A model generated the notes under the pieces. It was not told the DNA's origin and ran no database searches. It was given only the letters and a program-made list of their open reading frames with translations. The position numbers were made by a program, and so were the translations under genes. Positions 30,882-48,371 of a stretch of 57,785 nucleotides of DNA are shown here, in pieces (within the stretch, counting starts at the first letter, position 1; each line of letters begins with the position of its first letter). Source of the DNA: an uncultured Verrucomicrobiales bacterium (GTDB taxonomy: Bacteria; Verrucomicrobiota; Verrucomicrobiia; Verrucomicrobiales; DEV007); NCBI GenBank assembly GCA_937922595.1, contig CALAIY010000098.1, forward strand, positions 1 to 57,785, in the 5' to 3' direction.

Positions 30882-31555
30882 TCTCCGAAATCTTCTACTC
30901 CGTCCAAGGTGAAGGCACGCTCACCGGAGTCCCCTCCGTTTTCGTACGCACGTCAGGGTGCAATCTCCGCTGCCGCTGGTGCGACACCCCCTACGCCTCC
31001 TGGAAGCCTGAAGGCAAAACACTCTCCCCCGCCGAGATCCTCAGCACCGTACGCTCCCACTCCCCAGCTCGCCACGTCGTCCTCACCGGCGGCGAACCCA
31101 TGATCGCCCCCGAGCTCCCAGAATTGTGCGCCCTCCTCCGCACCGAAGGCTTCCACATCACCATCGAGACCGCAGGCACCATCGCCCCCTCCGGCATCGC
31201 CTGCGACCTCGCCTCCATCAGCCCAAAGCTCGCAAATTCCACACCACACGAAGGCGAAATCGACGCCACCTGGATCGCCCGCCACGAAGCCACCCGCTAC
31301 CAGCCAGAGATTATCGCATCCTGGCTCACCCACTACGAGACGCAGCTCAAATTCGTCGTCTCCAGCGAAAGCGACCTCACCGAAATTACCGCCCTCGCCC
31401 TCCCCGCAGACCGGATTTTACTCATGCCCGAAGGCACCACCCCACAAGCCCTCGCCGCCAAGACCACCTTCGTCGTCGAAGCCTGCAAGCGCCTCGGCTA
31501 CCGCTACTGCCCACGCGTCCACATCGATCTCTTCGGCAATACCCGCGGCACCTAG
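30875..31555 (+). CDS. queE: 7-carboxy-7-deazaguanine synthase QueE
   Basis: A radical SAM enzyme of the queuosine pathway that acts one step before QueC. 226 residues; SAM cluster Cys29, Cys33, Cys36 in SGCNLRCRWCDTPYA, followed by TGGEPM. ATG 30875 overlaps the end of queC. Ends 4 bases into the convergent sigma-factor gene. QueD and QueF are elsewhere. Confidence 0.95.
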   Translation: MLISEIFYSVQGEGTLTGVPSVFVRTSGCNLRCRWCDTPYASWKPEGKTLSPAEILSTVRSHSPARHVVLTGGEPMIAPELPELCALLRTEGFHITIETAGTIAPSGIACDLASISPKLANSTPHEGEIDATWIARHEATRYQPEIIASWLTHYETQLKFVVSSESDLTEITALALPADRILLMPEGTTPQALAAKTTFVVEACKRLGYRYCPRVHIDLFGNTRGT

Positions 31556-32184
31556 AGCGCGTCACTCTCCCGCGCCATCACCTCCATCTCCCACTTCCCC
31601 GCATCGATGGAATGCACCTTCTCCCGCAGCCGCGTCATCACGCGATGCTTCGCTACCCCCACCGCATTCTTCGACATCCCGAGATCCTCACCCACCGCCT
31701 CAGCACTCCGATGCTCAAGCGCAGTCCCCACAAACGCGTCCCAAATCCGCTCCGCAAACTCCCCCTTTATCTTCTCCAGAGCCCAGCCCATCAGCTGATT
31801 CTGATAATCCTTCTCCCAACGTTTCGCCTCCTCCTCCCGCGGCTCAGATTCCAGCGACTCAAGCACCTCCGTATCCGACACCGTATCCGGGCGCCTCGAT
31901 TTTTTCCGAAAATACGTACTGATCGCATTCCGCACCGCCGTAAACAACCATCCCTTAAATTTCCCCTTCTCCGGATCGTATTCGAAATTCACCATCGCCA
32001 GCGACACCGAGCGCATCACATCCTGCACAATATCCGAAGCATCGGCATGAGCCAAATCACGCTTCTTACAATAATTGTAAAGAAGCGGCGTGTAAATCTC
32101 CACGAATTCCTCCCAAGACCCCTGATCCTCGCGATCACGCAGCCGTAGCAGCAAAGTCTCGCGAGTCAGAATCTCAGTGTGCAT
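31552..32184 (-). CDS. ECF-type RNA polymerase sigma factor
   Basis: A 210-residue extracytoplasmic-function sigma factor. Region 2 covers about residues 20-95, with ADASDIVQDVMRSVSLAM and FKGWLFTAVRNAISTYFRK. Region 4 lies near 155-195, with AVGEDLGMSKNAVGVAKHRVMTRLREKV as the -35-binding helix-turn-helix. It fits the ECF type common in PVC bacteria. No anti-sigma gene is adjacent. It diverges from the SGNH/heme protein gene. GTG 32208 is an alternative, longer start. Confidence 0.88.
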   Translation of the reverse strand: MHTEILTRETLLLRLRDREDQGSWEEFVEIYTPLLYNYCKKRDLAHADASDIVQDVMRSVSLAMVNFEYDPEKGKFKGWLFTAVRNAISTYFRKKSRRPDTVSDTEVLESLESEPREEEAKRWEKDYQNQLMGWALEKIKGEFAERIWDAFVGTALEHRSAEAVGEDLGMSKNAVGVAKHRVMTRLREKVHSIDAGKWEMEVMARESDAL

Positions 32185-32308
32185 TCCACAAGATAAGAGA
32201 GACTCCACCGGATATCACCTAAATATACGCGCCTCTCCCCACCCGCTATCACATGAAATATTGTTTGGGTGCATCACGTTTTGACGACAAGATTCCTTCC
32301 CCTTTTCA

Positions 32309-35300
32309 ATGAAAAAACTCCTCTTCTTCACCGCTTCGGTTCTCATCGCAGCCGCGTATCACACCTCTGCCACCGACCTCCCCGGTCCGAAAATCCAGAC
32401 CACTATCACCTCGATCGAAGAGCAGCGGGAAGAAAAAAAACGCCCCTCCTACCAACAGCCGAAAAACCTCTCCAGCTCCGAAGCGCCCACCACCACGCTT
32501 CCCCTCAAACCCACCAAAGGCGAAAAAATCGTCTTTTTAGGCAATAGCCTCGCCGAACGCATGGAGCACTTTGGCCACTTTGAAAGCGCGCTCCACGGCA
32601 CCTTCCCCCAGGCCGAAATCACCTTCCGCAATATGGGCAAGCCTGGCCATACCCCCGCCTTTCGCCCAGAAGCAGGCACTAAAAACCCCTGGGCTTTCCC
32701 CGACGCTAAAAAATTCCGCCCCGACATCCGCAGACACCTCGGCAAAGGCCACTACCCAAGCGCCGATGAATGGCTCACCATCCTCGAAGCCGATACCATC
32801 ATCGCCTTCTTCGGATTCAACGAATCCTTCGACGGCCCCGACATGGCCGATAACTTCAAGGCCGAACTCGCCGCCTTCACCGACCACACCCTCAGCCAAG
32901 GCTACAACGGCCAAACCGCCCCCTCCCTCGTCCTCGCCACTCCCATCGCCGTCGAAGAACGCAAAGACTTCGCACTCCCCGATGCCGCCGCACGCAATGC
33001 CATCCTCGCCAAATACGCCGACGCCGTAAAGCAGGTCGCCGCTGAAAAAAATGTCGGCTTCATCGATCTCTTCACCCCCACCAAAGATCTCTTCGAGAAA
33101 TCAACCGAAGCCCCCCTCACCATCAATGGCATCCACCTCGGCAACGAAGGCTACAAAGCCCTCGCAGGCATCCTCATCAAAGATCTCTTCGCCAAAGACC
33201 TTCCATCCAAAGCAACGCCCCTCCTCGAAGAAGCCATCGTCGAGAAATCTTGGTTCTGGCGCAACGACTACCGCATGCTCAATGGCGTCCACGCCTACGG
33301 CCAGCGCTGGGCTCCCTACGGAAACTTCAACTACCCCGAAGAAATCGAAAAAATTCGCCAAATGACCGTCCTCCGCGACGAAAACATTTGGAAAGTCGCC
33401 CAAGGAAAATCCACCTCCCTCTCCGTCAACGACGCCTCCACCCGCCCACTCACACCAGTCACCACCAACTACGTACCCTCCGAAAAAAACGGCACCCCAG
33501 ACTTCCTCATGGAGGAAGAAGCCCTGAAAAAATTCGATCTCCCCGAAGGCTATAAAATTTCCGTCTTCGCCACCGAGCAAGAATTCCCCAACCTCGGAAA
33601 CCCCGCCCAAATCCGCTTCGATAACAAAGGCCGCGTCTGGGTCTCCACCGTCCCAAGCTACCCCCACTACAAACCCGGCAGCGAAATGCCGAACGACAAA
33701 CTCCTCATCTACGAAGACACCGATGGCGACGGACGTGCCGATAAAGAAACCGTCTTCGCCGATAAGCTCCACGTCCCCATCGGATTCGAAATCGCCCCCG
33801 AAGGCGTCTACATCTCCGAAGAGCCCTACCTCACCATCCACAAAGACACCGATGGCGATGACCGAGCAGACACCAAAGACTACCTCCTAGATGGCTTCGA
33901 CTCCCACGACACCCACCACGCCATCTCAGCCTTCGATCAAGACAACGGCGGAGCAATCTTCATGTGCGAAGGCCGCTTCCTCCACTCCCAAATAGAGACC
34001 CCATGGGGTCCCCAACGCATGACCGATGGCGGCGTCTGGCGCTTCGATCCCCACTCCTGGAAAGTCGAGCGTGTCATGCAAATGGACGTCTCCAATCCCT
34101 GGGGCGTCGCTCACGATGAATTCGGCCAGACCTTCCTCAATGACGCCTCCGGTGGAGATCAACTATGGATGGCCGCCTACTCCGTAAAATTGCCTCACAG
34201 CGATGAAATACGTAAAGTCGAAAAATTCAATTACGAGCACAACATCCGCCCCAGCTCCGGCAACGAATTCCTCCACTCCCGCGCCTTCCCCGATGAAGTC
34301 CAAGGCGATTACCTCTACGCCAACACCATTGGCTTCCTCGGCATCAAACAATTCGATACCGTAGAAGACGGCACCGCAATCAGAGGCAAGCACCGCCAAG
34401 ACATGATCCAATCCTCCGATGGAAACTTCCGCCCCTGCGACCTCCGCATGGCTCCCGATGGAAGCATCTACTTCGTCGATTGGCACAATACCCTCATCGG
34501 CCACATGCAACACAGCGCCCGCGACCCACTGCGCAATTCCGTCTACGGCCGAATCTACAAAATCACCTACGAAGGCCGTGATCTCGTAGAGCCCCCCAAA
34601 GTCGCCGGAGCAGATCTAGATACCCTCTTTGAAAACTTCAAACTCCCCGAGCTCAGCGCCCGCAAGCGAAGCCACAAAGAGCTCCGCGGCCGCGACGCCA
34701 AAGAAGTCATCACAAAAGCTCACGCCTTCGCCAAAGCCAACTCCGAAGCCCCCCGCCTCACCCTCGAATCCCTCTGGGCCACCTGGGGCCAGCAACAACC
34801 TTCGGTAAAACTCATCGAGCAATGTCTCGCCACCACCGATCACCGCGTCCGCGCCGGAGCCACCCGCGTCATCCGCCACTGCCTCCACCTCCTCGATCCC
34901 GCAGACATCGAGCGCTTCCTCATGAAAGCCGCCGCAGATGCCCACGGCCGCGTCCGTCTCGAAGCACTCTCCGCCTCCACCTGGCTCAGCGAAACCCATC
35001 CTGAGACCGGAGCCAAAATCCTCCTCACCGTCGCATCACAAGAAACTGATAAATGGATTCGCAACGCCCTCAACGTCTCCATGCGTCTCATGAAGCCAGC
35101 CGTAATCGCCACCATTGAAGCTGGCACCATAAAGAAAGAAGACGTCAAAGACTACGATCAACTCCTCGCCATGAAGCTCCCCGGCGCACCTAAGCGGAAA
35201 AACTACATGACCGACTCCGTCAAAAAAGCCCGGAAGAAAGACCGCAGCTTCAAATCCCAATACAAGCTCGGCCTCCAGGTCTTCCACGAAGAAGGCTCCT

Positions 35301-35707
35301 GCGCCACCTGCCACATGGAAACCGGCCAAGGCCTCGCAAGTATCTATCCACCCATCGCAAACAGCCCCTGGGTCACCGACGACAAAGAGCGCCTCATCAA
35401 GCTATCCCTCCACGGCATCTACGGAGACATCACCGTAAACGGCGTCGATTACCTCACCGCAAAAGGCGTCCCACCAATGACCGCCGTAGGCGCAATGTTC
35501 AGCGATGGCGAAATGGCAGCCGTCCTCACCTACGTCCGCAACAGCTGGGGCAACGAAGCCGATCCCATCACAGCCGAAGAAATAAAGAAAATCCGAGCCG
35601 CCACCAAAGACCGTAAAATCTTCTACACACCCGAAGAACTCATCAAAGAGCACCCCTTCCCCGAAGGCATCAAATCGATCCCCACCGCAGCAAAATCAGA
35701 AAGCTAA
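32309..35707 (+). CDS. SGNH-hydrolase/dehydrogenase-propeller/cytochrome c fusion (PVC-type CxxCH protein)
   Basis: A 1132-residue secreted protein. Signal peptide 1-21; SGNH hydrolase-like domain about 70-290 (GNS near residue 78 replaces GDS, NGIHLGNEGY near 272); PVC-type dehydrogenase propeller about 420-775 (SDGNFRPCDLRMAPDGSIYF); helical HEAT-like repeats about 790-950; and a c-type heme domain with CATCH at about 997-1001. Family members are thought to act on polysaccharide or alcohol-type substrates with periplasmic electron transfer; the substrate is unknown. Confidence 0.92.
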   Translation: MKKLLFFTASVLIAAAYHTSATDLPGPKIQTTITSIEEQREEKKRPSYQQPKNLSSSEAPTTTLPLKPTKGEKIVFLGNSLAERMEHFGHFESALHGTFPQAEITFRNMGKPGHTPAFRPEAGTKNPWAFPDAKKFRPDIRRHLGKGHYPSADEWLTILEADTIIAFFGFNESFDGPDMADNFKAELAAFTDHTLSQGYNGQTAPSLVLATPIAVEERKDFALPDAAARNAILAKYADAVKQVAAEKNVGFIDLFTPTKDLFEKSTEAPLTINGIHLGNEGYKALAGILIKDLFAKDLPSKATPLLEEAIVEKSWFWRNDYRMLNGVHAYGQRWAPYGNFNYPEEIEKIRQMTVLRDENIWKVAQGKSTSLSVNDASTRPLTPVTTNYVPSEKNGTPDFLMEEEALKKFDLPEGYKISVFATEQEFPNLGNPAQIRFDNKGRVWVSTVPSYPHYKPGSEMPNDKLLIYEDTDGDGRADKETVFADKLHVPIGFEIAPEGVYISEEPYLTIHKDTDGDDRADTKDYLLDGFDSHDTHHAISAFDQDNGGAIFMCEGRFLHSQIETPWGPQRMTDGGVWRFDPHSWKVERVMQMDVSNPWGVAHDEFGQTFLNDASGGDQLWMAAYSVKLPHSDEIRKVEKFNYEHNIRPSSGNEFLHSRAFPDEVQGDYLYANTIGFLGIKQFDTVEDGTAIRGKHRQDMIQSSDGNFRPCDLRMAPDGSIYFVDWHNTLIGHMQHSARDPLRNSVYGRIYKITYEGRDLVEPPKVAGADLDTLFENFKLPELSARKRSHKELRGRDAKEVITKAHAFAKANSEAPRLTLESLWATWGQQQPSVKLIEQCLATTDHRVRAGATRVIRHCLHLLDPADIERFLMKAAADAHGRVRLEALSASTWLSETHPETGAKILLTVASQETDKWIRNALNVSMRLMKPAVIATIEAGTIKKEDVKDYDQLLAMKLPGAPKRKNYMTDSVKKARKKDRSFKSQYKLGLQVFHEEGSCATCHMETGQGLASIYPPIANSPWVTDDKERLIKLSLHGIYGDITVNGVDYLTAKGVPPMTAVGAMFSDGEMAAVLTYVRNSWGNEADPITAEEIKKIRAATKDRKIFYTPEELIKEHPFPEGIKSIPTAAKSES

Positions 35708-38084: not shown

Positions 38085-40919
38085 TCATGGAGTAGAATTA
38101 CGCTCGATACGGTAAAAGAGTGCTCCTTGAGCGAACGGACGCAAGGGGATGAAGGCACTCCCTTTCCGTAGAGTGTCGGGAAGCTGCCAGGTCACGAGAT
38201 CCGTAGAAAAGGTGAGATGATCATCAATCCCAAGTGGGGCGCTGAGTTCGAGCAACGGCGTAGAGAAAAGACGGCGAATATTAATAATGGACGGAAGCCC
38301 TGCGTCTAACTCAAAAGCTCCAGTATCACTAGTGGTGCCGAGCACAGCGATATTACGAGGATAACCACGTTGGTCGTATGCGGGAAAACGAGATTCAATT
38401 CTAAAGTCCAAAGAATCCACTAGATCACTGTCGGCAATGAGGGCATGGGTGCGGCTACGCCCACCGTTGTCAGAAAGCGGTGCGAGGGTCACATTAACAT
38501 TAGTGCGATCGGCTGGCGCATCGAACCCTTGGGAACTTACCATGGAAGTAACGTTTCCACCAATAGATACAAACTGCTGCGAGAGGCTACTCGCATCAAT
38601 GCCTTCTAGGATTAGGCAACGAAATCCAACGAACCGAGAACCTTCACCAAGTAGAATTGCGGAAGCTCCTGAGGTATCTGATGAATTTTCCGCGAAGGTG
38701 CAAAAATCAACAAGAAGGACAGTGCCCGATCCGGATGTGAGGGCGGCACCAGAGGCAGCAGAGCGGTTTCCTGAAAAGGTGCAGTTTGAGAGAAGTAGCT
38801 GCTCGCCAAGAGCGGCGACGGCATTGAAATTCCCGGTGATGAGAGAATAGGCAATAGCCGCATTTCCACTTTCCTGAAGCAATGCCCCGCCTTGGCCTGA
38901 GCCTCCACTGAGTTCGAGCCCGAAGAGACTCAAGTGCGCCTCTGCAGTGGCACGAAAGAGCCGGATCGTGCCGTCCCCAGATAGAGTGACCCCAGGATTA
39001 GTGCCTGTAGCGTCGATCACGAGCGTTTTGTCGATCGGTATCTCAGAGGCGAGTTCGATCGTTGCTCCCCCAAGCGTTTCGGCAAATTGGATCGTTGCCC
39101 CAGGTGGCGCGGTGGCGATCGTTTCGCGCAGCGAGCCCACGCCGCGATCCGCTGTGTTAGTTACAAAAAGGGGCGGTGAAGTCTCGAAGGCACCAATGTC
39201 AATTTGAGCTCCGGCGATACGTGGAGCGCCGCGTCCATCGGTGCGCAGAGGTAGAGGAAGGCCGGGCTGGCCACCGGCAATGGCTGGGCTACCGGCGAGT
39301 GGTGGGTGAATCGGAGTACCGCGTGAAGAATCAACACTGGCAAAGACGAGAGGCCCTAAATTAGCCACGCAATAGGGTAAGTCGGAAGAGAGAGGTTCGG
39401 AAAAACCGGCGTCGTCAGTAATATTATAGCCAAGCGAAACATTACTGGAGGAAAGACTCGAAAGATTGCCGGACGTTTGGTTGCCCTGAAAAATCGTATG
39501 GGTCACTACAGCACCAATGGCAGCGAGACCCGCAACGCCATCGAAACTGGAATTACCGGCGAACGTGCAGTGACTTACGGACACACTTGCACCAACCGCA
39601 AAAACACCCCCTCCTCCTAAGCCCGCGACGTTGCCAGAAAAAGTGCAGCCGATGAGTTCGAGAGTGCTACCAACTGCTGCACGAAGCCCCCCACCGAGAC
39701 CGCCAGCAAGATTGCGTCCAAAAGTACTATTGTAGACGACAGCTGTAGCACCATCCTCCAACGAGAGTCCCCCTGCACTGCCGGTGCGGTTAAGATTTGC
39801 CGAAAGATAGCAAGCTTCCAGGGTAGCCGCGCCAGAAACGACAAGTCCCGTGCCACGCGTATCCTCTACATCCACGAAATGCAGTGCACAATCGGCTCCC
39901 GCAGTAATGGAAATGCCTGCGCCGAGACAATCTTCGAGGATCACACAAGAAAGTGCTCCTGTCGCGTTAGCGATGATCCCCGCCGTAGCGCCAAGACCAT
40001 CGATAGTGACGGGACCGACCAGTGAAAGCGGGCGAGCAATTGTAAGAGGTGCTTCCTGTGTCAGAGCTAGGATTTCCCCAGAAAGTTCGGGTGCGAGACG
40101 GATCGCAGATCCTGCCGGGGCATCCCGGAGCGCCTCGCGGAGTGACATTTCAGCTCCCACCGGATTATCTTCCTGGTCTTCTAGCGTGGTCACTTCCACG
40201 ACCGGCGGACGAAAATGAACGGCACGAGCGAATGCCATAGGAGAAGTATTTGCCCCACAGTCCCCCCCTATCGGCGCGGCAAGCCCTCCACCAGTGCTTG
40301 ATTGCTGAATCCCAGTGGTTCCAGAAAAACCACCAGTGCCTCCCGGCGCGGTGGCAACCGATTGGATGAGAATATCGAAGCTATCAGCGAGGATCGCTTG
40401 AAAGCTAAACGATTCTGAACTCTCAGCCACCACGATCCCACTCCAAGTGAAGACGTGTCCACCACCCGGAATATCAGTGCGACCTAGATCCTGAAGATAT
40501 TCGTAATGCACGCTGCCTCCAGGAGCAAAATCGAGATCGCCATGCATCGCATAAATTCTTGGGGCGTCGGCACCACTATCAGGCACCTGAGGAAGTGGGC
40601 AATCGGGCGTCGCGTCGCTGACCGCCAAAGGATCCGTGGTGAGATAGCCAAATTTCGACACGTAGAGCGTCGGATATACTTCGCCGTAAAAGACAAATGG
40701 TCGGGCGAGTGTCACCTCCTCAAAGACAACACTCGAATCATCAGCAGAGAGTAATTCAGTCGCACGCAGCCCCGGCTCAATCTGCAAAAATTCTGGTCCA
40801 TCTACCTCTTCTGAATCAATCCAAGTGTAGCCGAAAGCATCAGGCCCGTCAGTTGCGGCACATACTAGGGAGTGGAAAAGCAAGACAGACGCGCCGAGTA
40901 GAGTAAATATTCTTATCAT
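38085..40919 (-). CDS. Secreted beta-helix protein with kinase-like sensor module
   Basis: About 944 residues from ATG 40919 (ATG 40970 gives 961); signal peptide about 1-21. Residues 22-240 form a module GPDxFGYTW ... FxFYG ... DCPLP..PD.G.D.PR ... GGGHVFxW ... DILIQ ... HFRPP. This module also forms the extracellular part of the kinase upstream. A right-handed beta-helix/choice-of-anchor Q region (repeated CTFSGN, GGAL, AIAYS) fills residues 250-880. The end resembles the STDLxxW..FYR module. Probably cell-surface or matrix. Confidence 0.88.
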   Translation of the reverse strand: MIRIFTLLGASVLLFHSLVCAATDGPDAFGYTWIDSEEVDGPEFLQIEPGLRATELLSADDSSVVFEEVTLARPFVFYGEVYPTLYVSKFGYLTTDPLAVSDATPDCPLPQVPDSGADAPRIYAMHGDLDFAPGGSVHYEYLQDLGRTDIPGGGHVFTWSGIVVAESSESFSFQAILADSFDILIQSVATAPGGTGGFSGTTGIQQSSTGGGLAAPIGGDCGANTSPMAFARAVHFRPPVVEVTTLEDQEDNPVGAEMSLREALRDAPAGSAIRLAPELSGEILALTQEAPLTIARPLSLVGPVTIDGLGATAGIIANATGALSCVILEDCLGAGISITAGADCALHFVDVEDTRGTGLVVSGAATLEACYLSANLNRTGSAGGLSLEDGATAVVYNSTFGRNLAGGLGGGLRAAVGSTLELIGCTFSGNVAGLGGGGVFAVGASVSVSHCTFAGNSSFDGVAGLAAIGAVVTHTIFQGNQTSGNLSSLSSSNVSLGYNITDDAGFSEPLSSDLPYCVANLGPLVFASVDSSRGTPIHPPLAGSPAIAGGQPGLPLPLRTDGRGAPRIAGAQIDIGAFETSPPLFVTNTADRGVGSLRETIATAPPGATIQFAETLGGATIELASEIPIDKTLVIDATGTNPGVTLSGDGTIRLFRATAEAHLSLFGLELSGGSGQGGALLQESGNAAIAYSLITGNFNAVAALGEQLLLSNCTFSGNRSAASGAALTSGSGTVLLVDFCTFAENSSDTSGASAILLGEGSRFVGFRCLILEGIDASSLSQQFVSIGGNVTSMVSSQGFDAPADRTNVNVTLAPLSDNGGRSRTHALIADSDLVDSLDFRIESRFPAYDQRGYPRNIAVLGTTSDTGAFELDAGLPSIINIRRLFSTPLLELSAPLGIDDHLTFSTDLVTWQLPDTLRKGSAFIPLRPFAQGALFYRIERNSTP

Positions 40920-41001
40920 TGTAAAAGAAGTGGTGAAGCTTTTCGCAAAGAGATTAGAGGCCTTTGTCATACCCTACAAATCCCAAATGCCAAGAGGACA
41001 A

Positions 41002-43722
41002 CTAATCACTGGGAAGCGGCGGCACTGGAAATTCAGAAATTGACAAGACCTGCCCCCCTTCACCACCAATCACAACATTGCTTCCCTCTCCCATAAAGCG
41101 ATTTTCTCTAAGAACCCAATAGATATGCTCTATTGATTCGGTGAGCAGGATACCTTTCGAGAGCGCCAACGGGCAATCCGTTAAATCGAAATGGAGTGCT
41201 GTGTCACCTATCGCTCGCTCAACTAGATAAGGAGCCGTAACTCGCGTCTTCTTCATTCCTAAGCTAACCACACTTCCCGGCGGTAACTTTTCGCCAAGCG
41301 AAAGAATCCGCGAAGCCTCCACCGTGCTCTCTCTCATTCGAATCCCTGGACGCACAGACTCTTCTCCTTCCCCACGAACAACCCGAATGAAATCGCCCCC
41401 ACCAAGAAAGATCCTCGTCCGCTTCATATCTAGCGAAGCATTTCCACTATAAGTTAAGGCACGGTGCGAAGGCGTAGCAGGCTCGCCCCCAGCAATAAGA
41501 AATTTTGAATCACGAAGGCGGAGGTGACTGCCATGCTGCACAAGAATCCCTCCCCGCTGCCCTTCTGGATGCAGCAGGAAACCGATCTGCGAAATGCTCA
41601 AGTCACTCGCCGTCGTGATCGCCGGGATATCCGGGGAAACAGCTTCGATATAAGCACTACGAGTGCCCTGAGTTGGGGTGAGCGTGAGAGGTTTCCCCGC
41701 AGGAATCTCAATTCCTTCCAAGCAATGCGGCTCGCCATCAGGAAGCCCAATGTGCCCACCCGGCGGGGCATGAGCAATAGCCGCCGCAAGGTCGGAAAAC
41801 GGCATCTTGGTGCCATTAACCTCAAAGATACGTGTCGCCCCAACAACAGCAGTCGACGGAGGAGCCACCGGCGGTCGGAAGTGCGTTGCGTGGACGAACT
41901 TAAACGGCACGTAGCCCCCACAGATCGTACTAAGAGCAGATCCCGAGCCCGATTCCTGAATACCCGCGCTTGCGCGAAAACCGGTGACCCCCGTCGAAGA
42001 TCCGACCTGAATTAAGATATCTCCAGTATCGAAAAGCACCGCAATCAGCGAAATGGTCTCGCCCCGCCCACCAGGAACCGAAAGATTTTCCCAATGAAAC
42101 ACATGACCTCCACCCAGAATCGTAGAGTGATAGACTTCATCAAGCCGAATGTAGCAAACCCGCGTCTCCTCGGTGAACTCGTAATTCCCTTGGTAGCATG
42201 AAACACGGGGGACATCGGAGCCCAAATCCGGTATTACAGGGAGCGGGCAATCACCGGTGTAGTCCGTGCCATTGTCATCACTCCCCATAGCTAGATAACA
42301 ATACTTAGACATCACGACAGCGTCGTAAATTTGCCCGTAGAAAGGAAAGGGAGGATCCAACGCGATCTCTTGAGCGACCTCTCCATTTTCAAGTAATTTC
42401 GCGTTCTTAGCATCGAGGGAGAATCCTTGGTAGCGCGGACCACCAGGATCCAGCGCGTCCCTCCATGTATAGCCAAAATCATCCGGCCCCTGGTCTACGG
42501 CTTTTCTCGCCGCCACCATCTCAGCCATTGGCGAAAGCGACGTCCTTTTATAAATCGCCACTAAAGCAATCACAAGACTTACCACCGATAGAACACCGGC
42601 CATCACCACCCACGGCAGCTTACTCCGTCGCCTCGGCGGAAGTATTTTTGCCACGAGAGCCTGATTAAGCTCCTCCGCACTTGGAAACCGCTTCGCTGGA
42701 TCCTTCGCGAGCAATCGCGTGAAAATATGCGCAAGCCAAGGCTCTAAGTCCGGATTTAGATCCCTTGGATCGCGAGGCTCCGCCACCGCCACATTCTGGA
42801 GCACCGCCGTACTCGTATTCCCAGGAAAAGCCTGCTTCCCAGTCGCACAATGATAGAGAACGGATCCAAGGGAAAAAAGATCGCTTCGCCCATCAAGTAA
42901 GTGGCCTGCCGCCTGCTCAGGGGACATATAATGAGGGGTGCCCGAGATCATCCCCGCATAGGTAAGCGAGGGATCCCCCGCGCTACGAGCGATACCGAAA
43001 TCACATACCCAGAGTTTTTCACCGTCGCGGCTTAGGAGGATATTCGCAGGCTTAATATCGCGGTGCACAATCCCCACCCCATGAGCCGCACCAAGCGCGG
43101 AAGCTGTCTTGCTCGCAATACTAGTAAGCTCCGCCGTAGAAAATTTCTGCCCCGAATCGATTGCGTCCTGTAATGTCCCACCTGCCACATAACGCATCGC
43201 GAAATACGGCACCGCTTCCGCGTGCACGCTATAAATTGGCAAAATATTTTCATGCTCTAGCTTCGCCGCCGCCTGCGCTTCGCGAAGAAAACGCTCCCGC
43301 GCCGTCGCGTTCGTCGCCAAGGCCGGTGAGAGCACCTTGAGCGCAACAGCCCGTGCCAATTCCGTATCCTGCGCCTTAAGGACAATCCCCATTCCACCCA
43401 TAGCCACCACCTTTTCGACCTCATAACTTCCCAGTATTCCGAGTATTCCCTCCCCGCCCGGCGTCACTACCTCCCGCCACGAATCTTCGTGTAACCTTGG
43501 CCTCCCTCCTGATGCCCCCCTCTTGATTTTTGCGATCAGCTTCTTCACCGTCGGAGCCACATCCTCCGAAAGAATTTCGCTATCGAGCGATTCATCCAAT
43601 GGAGGTTTCGCTTCAAAATAACGCTCAATCGCCTCCGCTTCCTCGCGCCCCAGCTCGCCCGCCAACCACAAATCGACCCTTTCCATGTCGGGCTCATATT
43701 CTGGTGGGGTCTCTTCGGGCAT
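41002..43722 (-). CDS. Transmembrane Ser/Thr protein kinase with extracellular sensor and beta-helix
   Basis: 906 residues. Kinase domain about 100-350: VVAMGGMGIV glycine loop, Lys129, HRDIKPAN (Asp222), DFG (241-243), SPEQ. Single transmembrane helix 371-391. Extracellular residues 411-640 match the module at the start of the next gene's product (GPDDFGYTW, FPFYG, DCPLP, GGGHVFHW, DILIQ, HFRPPV), followed by a beta-helix of about 250 residues. An N-terminal segment DLWLAGELGREEAEAI is typical of PVC kinases. 31-82 bases separate it from the secreted gene, suggesting an operon. Confidence 0.92.
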   Translation of the reverse strand: MPEETPPEYEPDMERVDLWLAGELGREEAEAIERYFEAKPPLDESLDSEILSEDVAPTVKKLIAKIKRGASGGRPRLHEDSWREVVTPGGEGILGILGSYEVEKVVAMGGMGIVLKAQDTELARAVALKVLSPALATNATARERFLREAQAAAKLEHENILPIYSVHAEAVPYFAMRYVAGGTLQDAIDSGQKFSTAELTSIASKTASALGAAHGVGIVHRDIKPANILLSRDGEKLWVCDFGIARSAGDPSLTYAGMISGTPHYMSPEQAAGHLLDGRSDLFSLGSVLYHCATGKQAFPGNTSTAVLQNVAVAEPRDPRDLNPDLEPWLAHIFTRLLAKDPAKRFPSAEELNQALVAKILPPRRRSKLPWVVMAGVLSVVSLVIALVAIYKRTSLSPMAEMVAARKAVDQGPDDFGYTWRDALDPGGPRYQGFSLDAKNAKLLENGEVAQEIALDPPFPFYGQIYDAVVMSKYCYLAMGSDDNGTDYTGDCPLPVIPDLGSDVPRVSCYQGNYEFTEETRVCYIRLDEVYHSTILGGGHVFHWENLSVPGGRGETISLIAVLFDTGDILIQVGSSTGVTGFRASAGIQESGSGSALSTICGGYVPFKFVHATHFRPPVAPPSTAVVGATRIFEVNGTKMPFSDLAAAIAHAPPGGHIGLPDGEPHCLEGIEIPAGKPLTLTPTQGTRSAYIEAVSPDIPAITTASDLSISQIGFLLHPEGQRGGILVQHGSHLRLRDSKFLIAGGEPATPSHRALTYSGNASLDMKRTRIFLGGGDFIRVVRGEGEESVRPGIRMRESTVEASRILSLGEKLPPGSVVSLGMKKTRVTAPYLVERAIGDTALHFDLTDCPLALSKGILLTESIEHIYWVLRENRFMGEGSNVVIGGEGGQVLSISEFPVPPLPSD

Positions 43723-43774: not shown

Positions 43775-44665
43775 CTACCCCGAAGTTCGAGACCCCCTGC
43801 AAAACTCTAAAAACCTCTTTCCCGCATGCGACAGAGCCTTCCCGCGCCGCTTCATCACCTTAATCGATCGGCGCGGCTCCGGATCCAGCGACACAATCAC
43901 CACCTTTTTCGCCCGCGCCTCATCCAGTGCACTGTGCGGCACCACCGCGATCCCCTGCCCACCTGCCACGAATGCCAAGAGCGTCGCAAGCTGCTCACAT
44001 TCCACCCCCGTCTCATCGGTTCCCGTAGGGCACACCTCCACCGTCTGATCCCGCAAGCAGTGGCCTGCACGCAAATGCATCACCTCTTCCGGCGGCACAT
44101 CCGCCAGTGCTACCGCCTTACTCCCCGCAAGCGCATGACCCTCCGGCACAGCAAGATAGAGCGCCTCATCATAGAGATCTTCTAAATGCACCGACCTTCC
44201 GGCACCCGCCGCCTTCGTCACGTCGCTCACAATCGCCAGCTCAATATCTTCTGAAGAAACCGCCTGCACCAGCTCCGCCGTTTCCGCCTCTCGGATCTGA
44301 AACCCCACATCCGGGTGCTCCGCACGAAATTTCATCAAGAGCCCCGGAAGAAAATACGGCCCCACAGTAGGAATCACCCCCAAGCGCACCGCTCCCGAAA
44401 GCGGTCTCCCCTTCTCAGCGAATTCCTCCAGAATCCCATCCGCCTCTTCCACCACACTTGCCGCCCGATCTCGAAGGTTACGCCCCGCGTGAGTCAGCTC
44501 CACGCCCCCCGGCTTCCGGAGGAAAAGCGGCTCTCCAAGCTCCGATTCAAGATTCTGAATTTGCTGGCTCAGCGACGGTTGCGAAATATGACAGCGCTCT
44601 GCGGCACGAGTGAAATTACCCATCTGGGCGACTGCTAGAAAATAGCGAAGTTGGCGAATTTCCAT
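43775..44665 (-). CDS. oxyR: OxyR-type hydrogen-peroxide-sensing LysR regulator
   Basis: A 296-residue LTTR. The redox pair Cys203 and Cys212 in GHCLRDQTVEVC matches the E. coli Cys199/Cys208 motif with the same 8-residue spacing, so a disulfide switch is expected. The N-terminal helix-turn-helix is AAERCHISQPSLSQQIQNLE. Start is ATG 44665; the longer reading is not supported. It diverges from a DUF481 gene and an OxyR half-site lies between them. Confidence 0.93.
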   Translation of the reverse strand: MEIRQLRYFLAVAQMGNFTRAAERCHISQPSLSQQIQNLESELGEPLFLRKPGGVELTHAGRNLRDRAASVVEEADGILEEFAEKGRPLSGAVRLGVIPTVGPYFLPGLLMKFRAEHPDVGFQIREAETAELVQAVSSEDIELAIVSDVTKAAGAGRSVHLEDLYDEALYLAVPEGHALAGSKAVALADVPPEEVMHLRAGHCLRDQTVEVCPTGTDETGVECEQLATLLAFVAGGQGIAVVPHSALDEARAKKVVIVSLDPEPRRSIKVMKRRGKALSHAGKRFLEFCRGSRTSG

Positions 44666-44713
44666 GGATCTATTGAGAGGAATTGAGCCTATCACCCCAC
44701 AACTCCTCCAGCA

Positions 44714-44728
44714 ATAGGCAAAACCTAT
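44714..44728. promoter_or_regulatory. Probable OxyR-binding half-site
   Basis: ATAGGCAAAACCTAT fits the OxyR pattern ATAG-N7-CTAT exactly. It lies in the 185-base interval between oxyR and the DUF481 gene, about 50 bases from the oxyR start. A second, poorer site is not evident. Confidence 0.6.
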
Positions 44729-44850
44729 CACGCCCGATACGCAAGCCCCACACAGATTACAAACACCCAAAGAATAAGACTTGACCCACCTACCAAAAAC
44801 ACCACATCCTCACCGTCCACAAAATATCCAACTTCTTTATACACAACATC

Positions 44851-47672: not shown

Positions 47673-48371
47673 ATGAAAACAACACTCATTCTCGCCGCCA
47701 GCCTCGCCTGCTCCGCTCCCCTCTTTGCCAAAGATGCCAAGCAAATGCCCGTGACTGCGGAAGAGCAGAAAGCCATGTCACCCGACGCCGTAATCGCCGA
47801 CCTGATGGCCGGAAACAAACGTTACGTCGCCGGCAAACTCACCGATCTAAACATCAAGGAAAACATCAAGGCCACCGCCAAAAGCCAGTTTCCGAAAGCC
47901 GTCATCCTCTCCTGCCTCGATTCACGCGTCCCCGTAGAAAACGTCTTCGACCAAGGCATTGGCGATATTTTCGTCGGTCGTGTCGCCGGAAACGTCGAAA
48001 ACGTCGATATGCTCGGCTCCTTCGAATTCGCAACAAAGCTTGCCGGATCGAAAGTCGTCATGGTCCTCGGCCACACCGCATGCGGTGCCGTAAAAGGAGC
48101 CTGCGACCACGCCAAACTCGGCAACCTCACAGCACTCCTCGATAGCATCCAGCCCGCCGTGAAAGCAGTCGAAAGCCAGTACCCCGAAGATCAGCGCAAT
48201 TCCAAAAACATCGAATACGTAAACAAAGTCGTCGTTGAAAACGTGAAAATGACAGTAGCCGATATCCGCAAGGGCAGCGAAGTCCTCGCCGAAATGGAAA
48301 AAGCCGGTGAAATCAAAATCATCGGAGCCCTCTACGACCTCGCCACCGGTGAAGTCACCATGGTGAAGTAA
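47673..48371 (+). CDS. Secreted beta-class carbonic anhydrase
   Basis: A 232-residue beta-CA with signal peptide (cleavage near residue 19). Zinc ligands and the Asp-Arg dyad are Cys81, Asp83, Arg85 in LSCLDSRVPVE, with His134 and Cys137 in GHTACGAVKG. It interconverts CO2 and bicarbonate, here most likely in the periplasm. A terminator follows. Alternative: an authentic cytoplasmic enzyme with a hydrophobic start, less likely. Confidence 0.93.
   Translation: MKTTLILAASLACSAPLFAKDAKQMPVTAEEQKAMSPDAVIADLMAGNKRYVAGKLTDLNIKENIKATAKSQFPKAVILSCLDSRVPVENVFDQGIGDIFVGRVAGNVENVDMLGSFEFATKLAGSKVVMVLGHTACGAVKGACDHAKLGNLTALLDSIQPAVKAVESQYPEDQRNSKNIEYVNKVVVENVKMTVADIRKGSEVLAEMEKAGEIKIIGALYDLATGEVTMVK

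Follow-up and report, generated by a model that had tools for sequence, protein, structure and literature searches.

Domain sharing between a membrane regulator and the exported proteins under its control has been described for the carbohydrate-sensing RsgI anti-sigma factors of Clostridium thermocellum, whose external binding domains are akin to the enzymes they control, as exemplified by the GH10 domain of RsgI6 and Xyn10D (PMC4711584). Signaling from a Ser/Thr protein kinase to a sigma factor has been reported for PknS/EcfK of Xanthomonas citri, in which the kinase acts on the sigma factor by phosphorylation, and for PknT-EcfP of Vibrio parahaemolyticus (PMC13147305). Little is known about the signals that bacterial Ser/Thr kinases and ECF sigma systems receive, above all in PVC bacteria, and a sensor that shares a domain with its own cargo would make its input guessable from the ligand of the exported protein.

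We analyzed a probable locus of this kind in a 57,785-nucleotide stretch of DNA from an uncultured Verrucomicrobiales bacterium, hereafter the window (Table 1). As in the ECF43/Hanks-type kinase systems, an ECF sigma factor gene accompanies that of a transmembrane Ser/Thr kinase bearing an outer domain, and the signal would cross the membrane to reach the sigma factor. The sigma and kinase genes co-occur, being adjacent in most relatives; in the window they lie on the same strand but about 8.8 kb apart. In contrast to ECF43, region 2.2 of the window sigma factor reads DASDIVQD in the alignment, with the acidic residues of DxxD kept and no QTTA-like replacement, and the system is therefore not an ECF43-type phospho-switch. 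It further differs by the anti-sigma-like N-terminus of the kinase, the NIDO-like and beta-helix composition of its ectodomain, and the presence of an exported beta-rich protein in the locus. With RsgI/sigma-I the locus shares a regulator that carries an external domain from a family also represented in a co-located exported protein. However, RsgI is a Gram-positive anti-sigma factor without a kinase, and sigma-I is not of the ECF type, whereas the N-terminal half of the window regulator is a protein kinase, its candidate partner is ECF-type, the RsgI N-terminal domain and sigma-I are absent, and the shared domain is NIDO-like.

Table 1. Features of the probable signaling locus (window coordinates; residue ranges in parentheses)
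Feature	Coordinates	Strand	Evidence or remark
ECF-type sigma factor, likely kinase partner	31552..32208	-	Identity to sigma factors of relatives
GDSL / DUF7133 / cytochrome c fusion gene	32309..35707	+	Between sigma gene and the rest
Choice-of-anchor D exported protein, 737 aa	35783..37996	-	Third gene
Exported partner, 961 aa: hydrophobic N-terminal signal segment, NIDO-like domain, beta-helix	38085..40970	-	
NIDO-like domain of exported partner (40-262)	40185..40853	-	BLASTP with kinase copy
Transmembrane Ser/Thr protein kinase, 906 aa	41002..43722	-	Pkinase 1.1e-41; HRDIKP, DFG, VALK intact
Right-handed beta-helix of kinase (about 630-906), inherited with the kinase family	41005..41835	-	Family comparison, AlphaFold2, structure match
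NIDO-like domain of kinase (410-624), paralogue of the neighbor's	41851..42495	-	BLASTP, tree, profile
Single transmembrane helix (about 372-390)	42553..42609	-	Hydropathy 2.9 at residue 372
Kinase domain (95-360)	42643..43440	-	Pkinase match
Kinase N-terminus (1-94), degenerate relative of the zf-HC2 anti-sigma-type domain	43441..43722	-	Alignment of 17 kinases

Architecture of the kinase and its exported neighbor

The part of the kinase outside the cytoplasm begins near residue 392, after the transmembrane helix. Because Verrucomicrobiota have an outer membrane, this ectodomain would be located in the periplasm and not at the cell surface, where the preliminary description of the locus had placed it. 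At the opposite end of the protein, basal members of the beta-helix kinase family start with a zf-HC2 anti-sigma-type zinc finger, which in the relatives exceeded the Pfam cut-off in two cases, fell just under it in a third, and was weak in a fourth. The HxxxCxxC zinc ligands are kept in the basal relatives and lost in the window kinase and its clade. A comparison with PHROGs returned nothing beyond the kinase.

The AlphaFold2 model of the kinase, based on 12 sequences, had a mean pLDDT of 66, with the shared domain well folded and the beta-helix moderately so. In structure comparison, kinase residues ~687-886 matched PL3 pectate lyase (Z 14.2, 2.6 A over 167 residues), and residues ~255-538 of the exported partner matched AlgE4 (Z 20.3). 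The earlier claim that a beta-helix follows the shared domain in both proteins thus holds for the fold but does not extend to close homology of the helices. Cross-matches between them were at noise level, with best domain scores below 5 bits. The kinase helix scored 2.3e-80 against the profile of its own kinase family, whereas the exported partner has two stretches above the cut-off for the choice-of-anchor Q beta-helix proteins (NF041518) and belongs to that family. The two helices have no shared inheritance.

The kinase gene and the exported partner gene, both on the minus strand, are arranged head to tail with a gap of 31 bp, a close same-strand packing that supports the preliminary description. 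All seven sequence blocks quoted in the preliminary description were found in both proteins in the same order, and BLASTP aligned kinase residues 408-624 with residues 38-262 of the exported protein at 86/228 identities (38%, E=1e-37). The kinase region assigned to this domain, formerly 411-640, was indeed shared and outside the cytoplasm, although its limits are now 410-624. Comparison by structure prediction, which had also been proposed, gave a nearly identical strand order for the two domains (AlphaFold2, pLDDT mostly 75-92). Most family members have two conserved cysteines, one in DCPLP and one close to the C-terminus of the domain, and both window copies retain them, and the family-conserved positions are retained in the kinase copy; the cysteine pair suits an oxidizing compartment.

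A whole-genome search detected just two copies of the domain, both at the window locus. When 12 family members were placed in a tree, the kinase and exported copies were sisters (support 100/99), with branch lengths of 1.44 and 0.55 changes per column, respectively. Together with the 38% identity, this pattern indicates that the domain was duplicated locally between the neighboring genes in the window lineage, in agreement with the paralogy noted earlier between the sensor and its neighbor. Duplication during assembly was excluded as the source of the second copy, because of the 38% amino acid identity and the long kinase branch.

The shared domain is best described by profile comparison as a distant nidogen-like (NIDO, PF06119) domain. 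Neither window protein reached the Pfam gathering score for NIDO, and 2 of 11 family members matched the model weakly (best E 0.0011). A related Verrucomicrobiota domain (L015) passes the Pfam NIDO cut-off with 30.4 versus 25 bits, and the family profile matched L015 aligned with a relative from L007 at 99.6% probability (E=7.6e-25, 190 columns), which links the window family to an accepted NIDO domain over the whole domain length. The window domains differ from NIDO in missing its model and in having their own conserved DCPLP, second cysteine, and family motifs. By sequence, no convincing solved relative of the NIDO-like domain was found. Foldseek with the kinase ectodomain gave nothing significant, and a second look was filled by beta-helices, so that these comparisons bear little on the NIDO-like fold. 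Elsewhere the domain occurs mostly in exported proteins of 1500-3100 aa, directly before a beta-helix. Versions without a beta-helix exist in G285:C20 (L102) and in the Phycisphaerales locus L055, so the domain is more than a helix cap; an obligatory capping role was rejected as a general rule.

In the nearest kinase relatives, from four genomes of the same family (G459, G033, G006, and G010), the kinase and transmembrane helix are followed by one or two helix units, with no NIDO-like domain. The window kinase is nested among these NIDO-free beta-helix kinases (support 98/97), and its helix is closest to the first helix unit of the relatives. The NIDO-like copy thus landed between the transmembrane helix and the beta-helix of a pre-existing kinase. 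No second kinase-NIDO fusion was found in 388 genomes of the phylum, 387 of the order, and 75 of the family, or in a contig scan of 84,980 species that used one peptide pattern and may therefore have missed cases. The single genome with the fusion has a fragmented assembly (174 contigs, 93% complete).

Recurrent neighborhoods of sigma factor, kinase, and exported protein

The sigma factor, which was absent from the preliminary description, matches Sigma70_r2 and ECF-type relatives and is 56-60% identical to the sigma factors adjoining the four closest kinase relatives. Nothing else of its kind occurs in the genome (next best 28%), and it is likely the partner of the window kinase. Between it and the pair of kinase and exported partner lie the choice-of-anchor D gene and the plus-strand gene 32309-35707. 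The latter, head to head with the sigma gene, combines a GDSL lipase-like domain, DUF7133 (PVC-type dehydrogenase), and cytochrome c, and is not thought to be part of the system. The choice-of-anchor D protein is 34% identical over 741 aa to its counterpart in Roseibacillus persicicus. BLASTP found no match for a C-terminal module that had seemed common to the first two exported proteins, and a scan for promoters and terminators gave background levels.

About 22 beta-helix kinases were identified in the 75 family genomes, most of them directly adjoining an ECF-type sigma gene; in G003:C60 (L101) and G034:C498 (L161), two such kinases stand in tandem beside one sigma gene. No papers on beta-helix kinases with ECF sigma factors in Verrucomicrobia were found in the literature searched.

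An exported NIDO-like gene adjoins a beta-helix kinase in three other genomes of two families. The gene pair, whose recurrence the preliminary description had named as a check, thus recurs, and far above chance. The order is sigma, exported protein, kinase in G010; two helix kinases followed by the exported gene, with a divergent sigma gene, in G003; and exported protein, sigma, kinase, all on one strand, in G282 (Verrucomicrobiota JB023). In G010 and G003, the pair depends on one gene whose halves were joined across two contig ends (profile columns 6-75 then 75-214, and 2-58 then 52-215, respectively). In R. persicicus, the sigma gene, helix kinase, and choice-of-anchor D gene come in this order, and a NIDO gene follows one gene further along. 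A kinase within 1 kb was present in 3 of the 13 NIDO-like loci outside the window, against 0.107 expected for all kinases (P=1.4e-4) and 0.005 for beta-helix kinases only (P about 1e-8), the P values serving as guides since the 1-kb distance was chosen after the loci were seen.

None of the other paired kinases has the NIDO-like domain. Since the kinase is without it in every other locus found, the pairing predates the domain duplication, and homotypic contact cannot be its general mechanism. The exported neighbors of other helix kinases are varied: a choice-of-anchor D-like giant in G669, similar to that type by its N-terminal sequence, a delta-60 propeller in G446, FG-GAP/NxxGxxAF proteins in G035, G029, and G023, and a PD40 protein in G033. 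Across loci, the constant parts are the sigma factor, the kinase, and the kinase beta-helix, and the exported partner varies. This variety agrees better with neighbors that are the output of the sigma/kinase locus, or its cargo, than with the dedicated ligand that had been proposed. A choice-of-anchor D type giant, an ECF sigma factor, and a beta-helix kinase form a compact locus in G669:C3 (L178) and G285:C20 (L177, L102).

Predicted function and alternative explanations

We favor, at a probability of roughly 0.5, an ECF sigma and kinase signaling locus with exported beta-rich cargo, in which cargo and sensor share a domain and likely the same ligand. Its architecture, family assignment, recurrent neighborhood, and domain duplication are established at the level of sequence, and its general reading as a signaling locus is quite probable; that the sensor and the exported protein bind a common ligand is a more tentative component, for which we put the odds somewhat below even. 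The kinase ectodomain would sense a ligand in the periplasm, and kinase activity, release by the N-terminal region, or both would then control the sigma factor, which in turn would drive expression of the exported protein or proteins. The copied NIDO-like domain most likely would give the sensor the binding specificity of the exported protein, such that the cell reads the availability of whatever its cargo binds, following the RsgI principle. Against this explanation, the sigma and kinase genes are not adjacent and are separated by an opposite-strand gene, the zinc ligands are lost, the fusion is seen in one genome, the enrichment is post hoc, and two of the pairs span contig ends.

The preliminary description had proposed that the exported protein, as ligand, scaffold, or decoy, binds the kinase through their related domains. 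Such homotypic binding, whether by the whole protein or by its NIDO-like domain, might for instance report back on cargo that is still unexported in the periplasm. It would agree with the local duplication that placed the domain in both proteins, with the 31-bp spacing of the genes, and with the recurrence of the pairing. We regard it as unlikely: the other paired kinases dispense with the domain, so that homotypic binding does not explain the recurrence, further kinases have unrelated exported neighbors, and paralogy alone implies no self-association. The earlier interpretation is thus upheld for the domain, its ancestry, and the recurrence of the pair, but not for surface location or for homotypic contact as the general basis of the pairing. 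Hardly more probable is that the domain was captured from next door by structural or neutral shuffling and serves as a spacer presenting the beta-helix, without contributing specifically to sensing. Relaxed constraint is suggested by the length of the kinase branch, the fusion was seen only once, and most secreted homologues carry the domain directly before a beta-helix, as the kinase does; yet the kinase copy keeps the conserved positions and both cysteines, and the domain also occurs free of a helix. Finally, generic exported proteins might stand beside the kinase by chance and without a functional link, given that these genomes abound in beta-rich exported proteins and that 9 of the 13 NIDO-like loci outside the window had no kinase neighbor on the DNA examined. 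With 0.1 expected, the recurrence in three genomes that belong to two families, together with the choice-of-anchor D type neighbor in two more genomes (R. persicicus and G669), makes such a coincidence very improbable.

Extending the favored explanation beyond the window, we tentatively suggest a widespread Verrucomicrobiota module of ECF sigma factor, beta-helix kinase, and exported beta-rich protein, which may be a kinase-based counterpart of RsgI that gains new input specificity by copying a binding domain of its cargo into the sensor, such that both would read one ligand. This wider module, which is present in the cultured and tractable R. persicicus KCTC 12988, ties the kinase family to families of "choice-of-anchor" exported proteins.

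Two further genes were observed in the window. A LysR-family regulator (43775-44770, minus strand) lies 52 bp upstream of the kinase gene on the same strand and has a cysteine pattern (HCLRDQ...VC) that recalls OxyR. The plus-strand gene 47673-48371 encodes a small protein that seems to carry a signal peptide and, by eye, looks like a beta-carbonic anhydrase.
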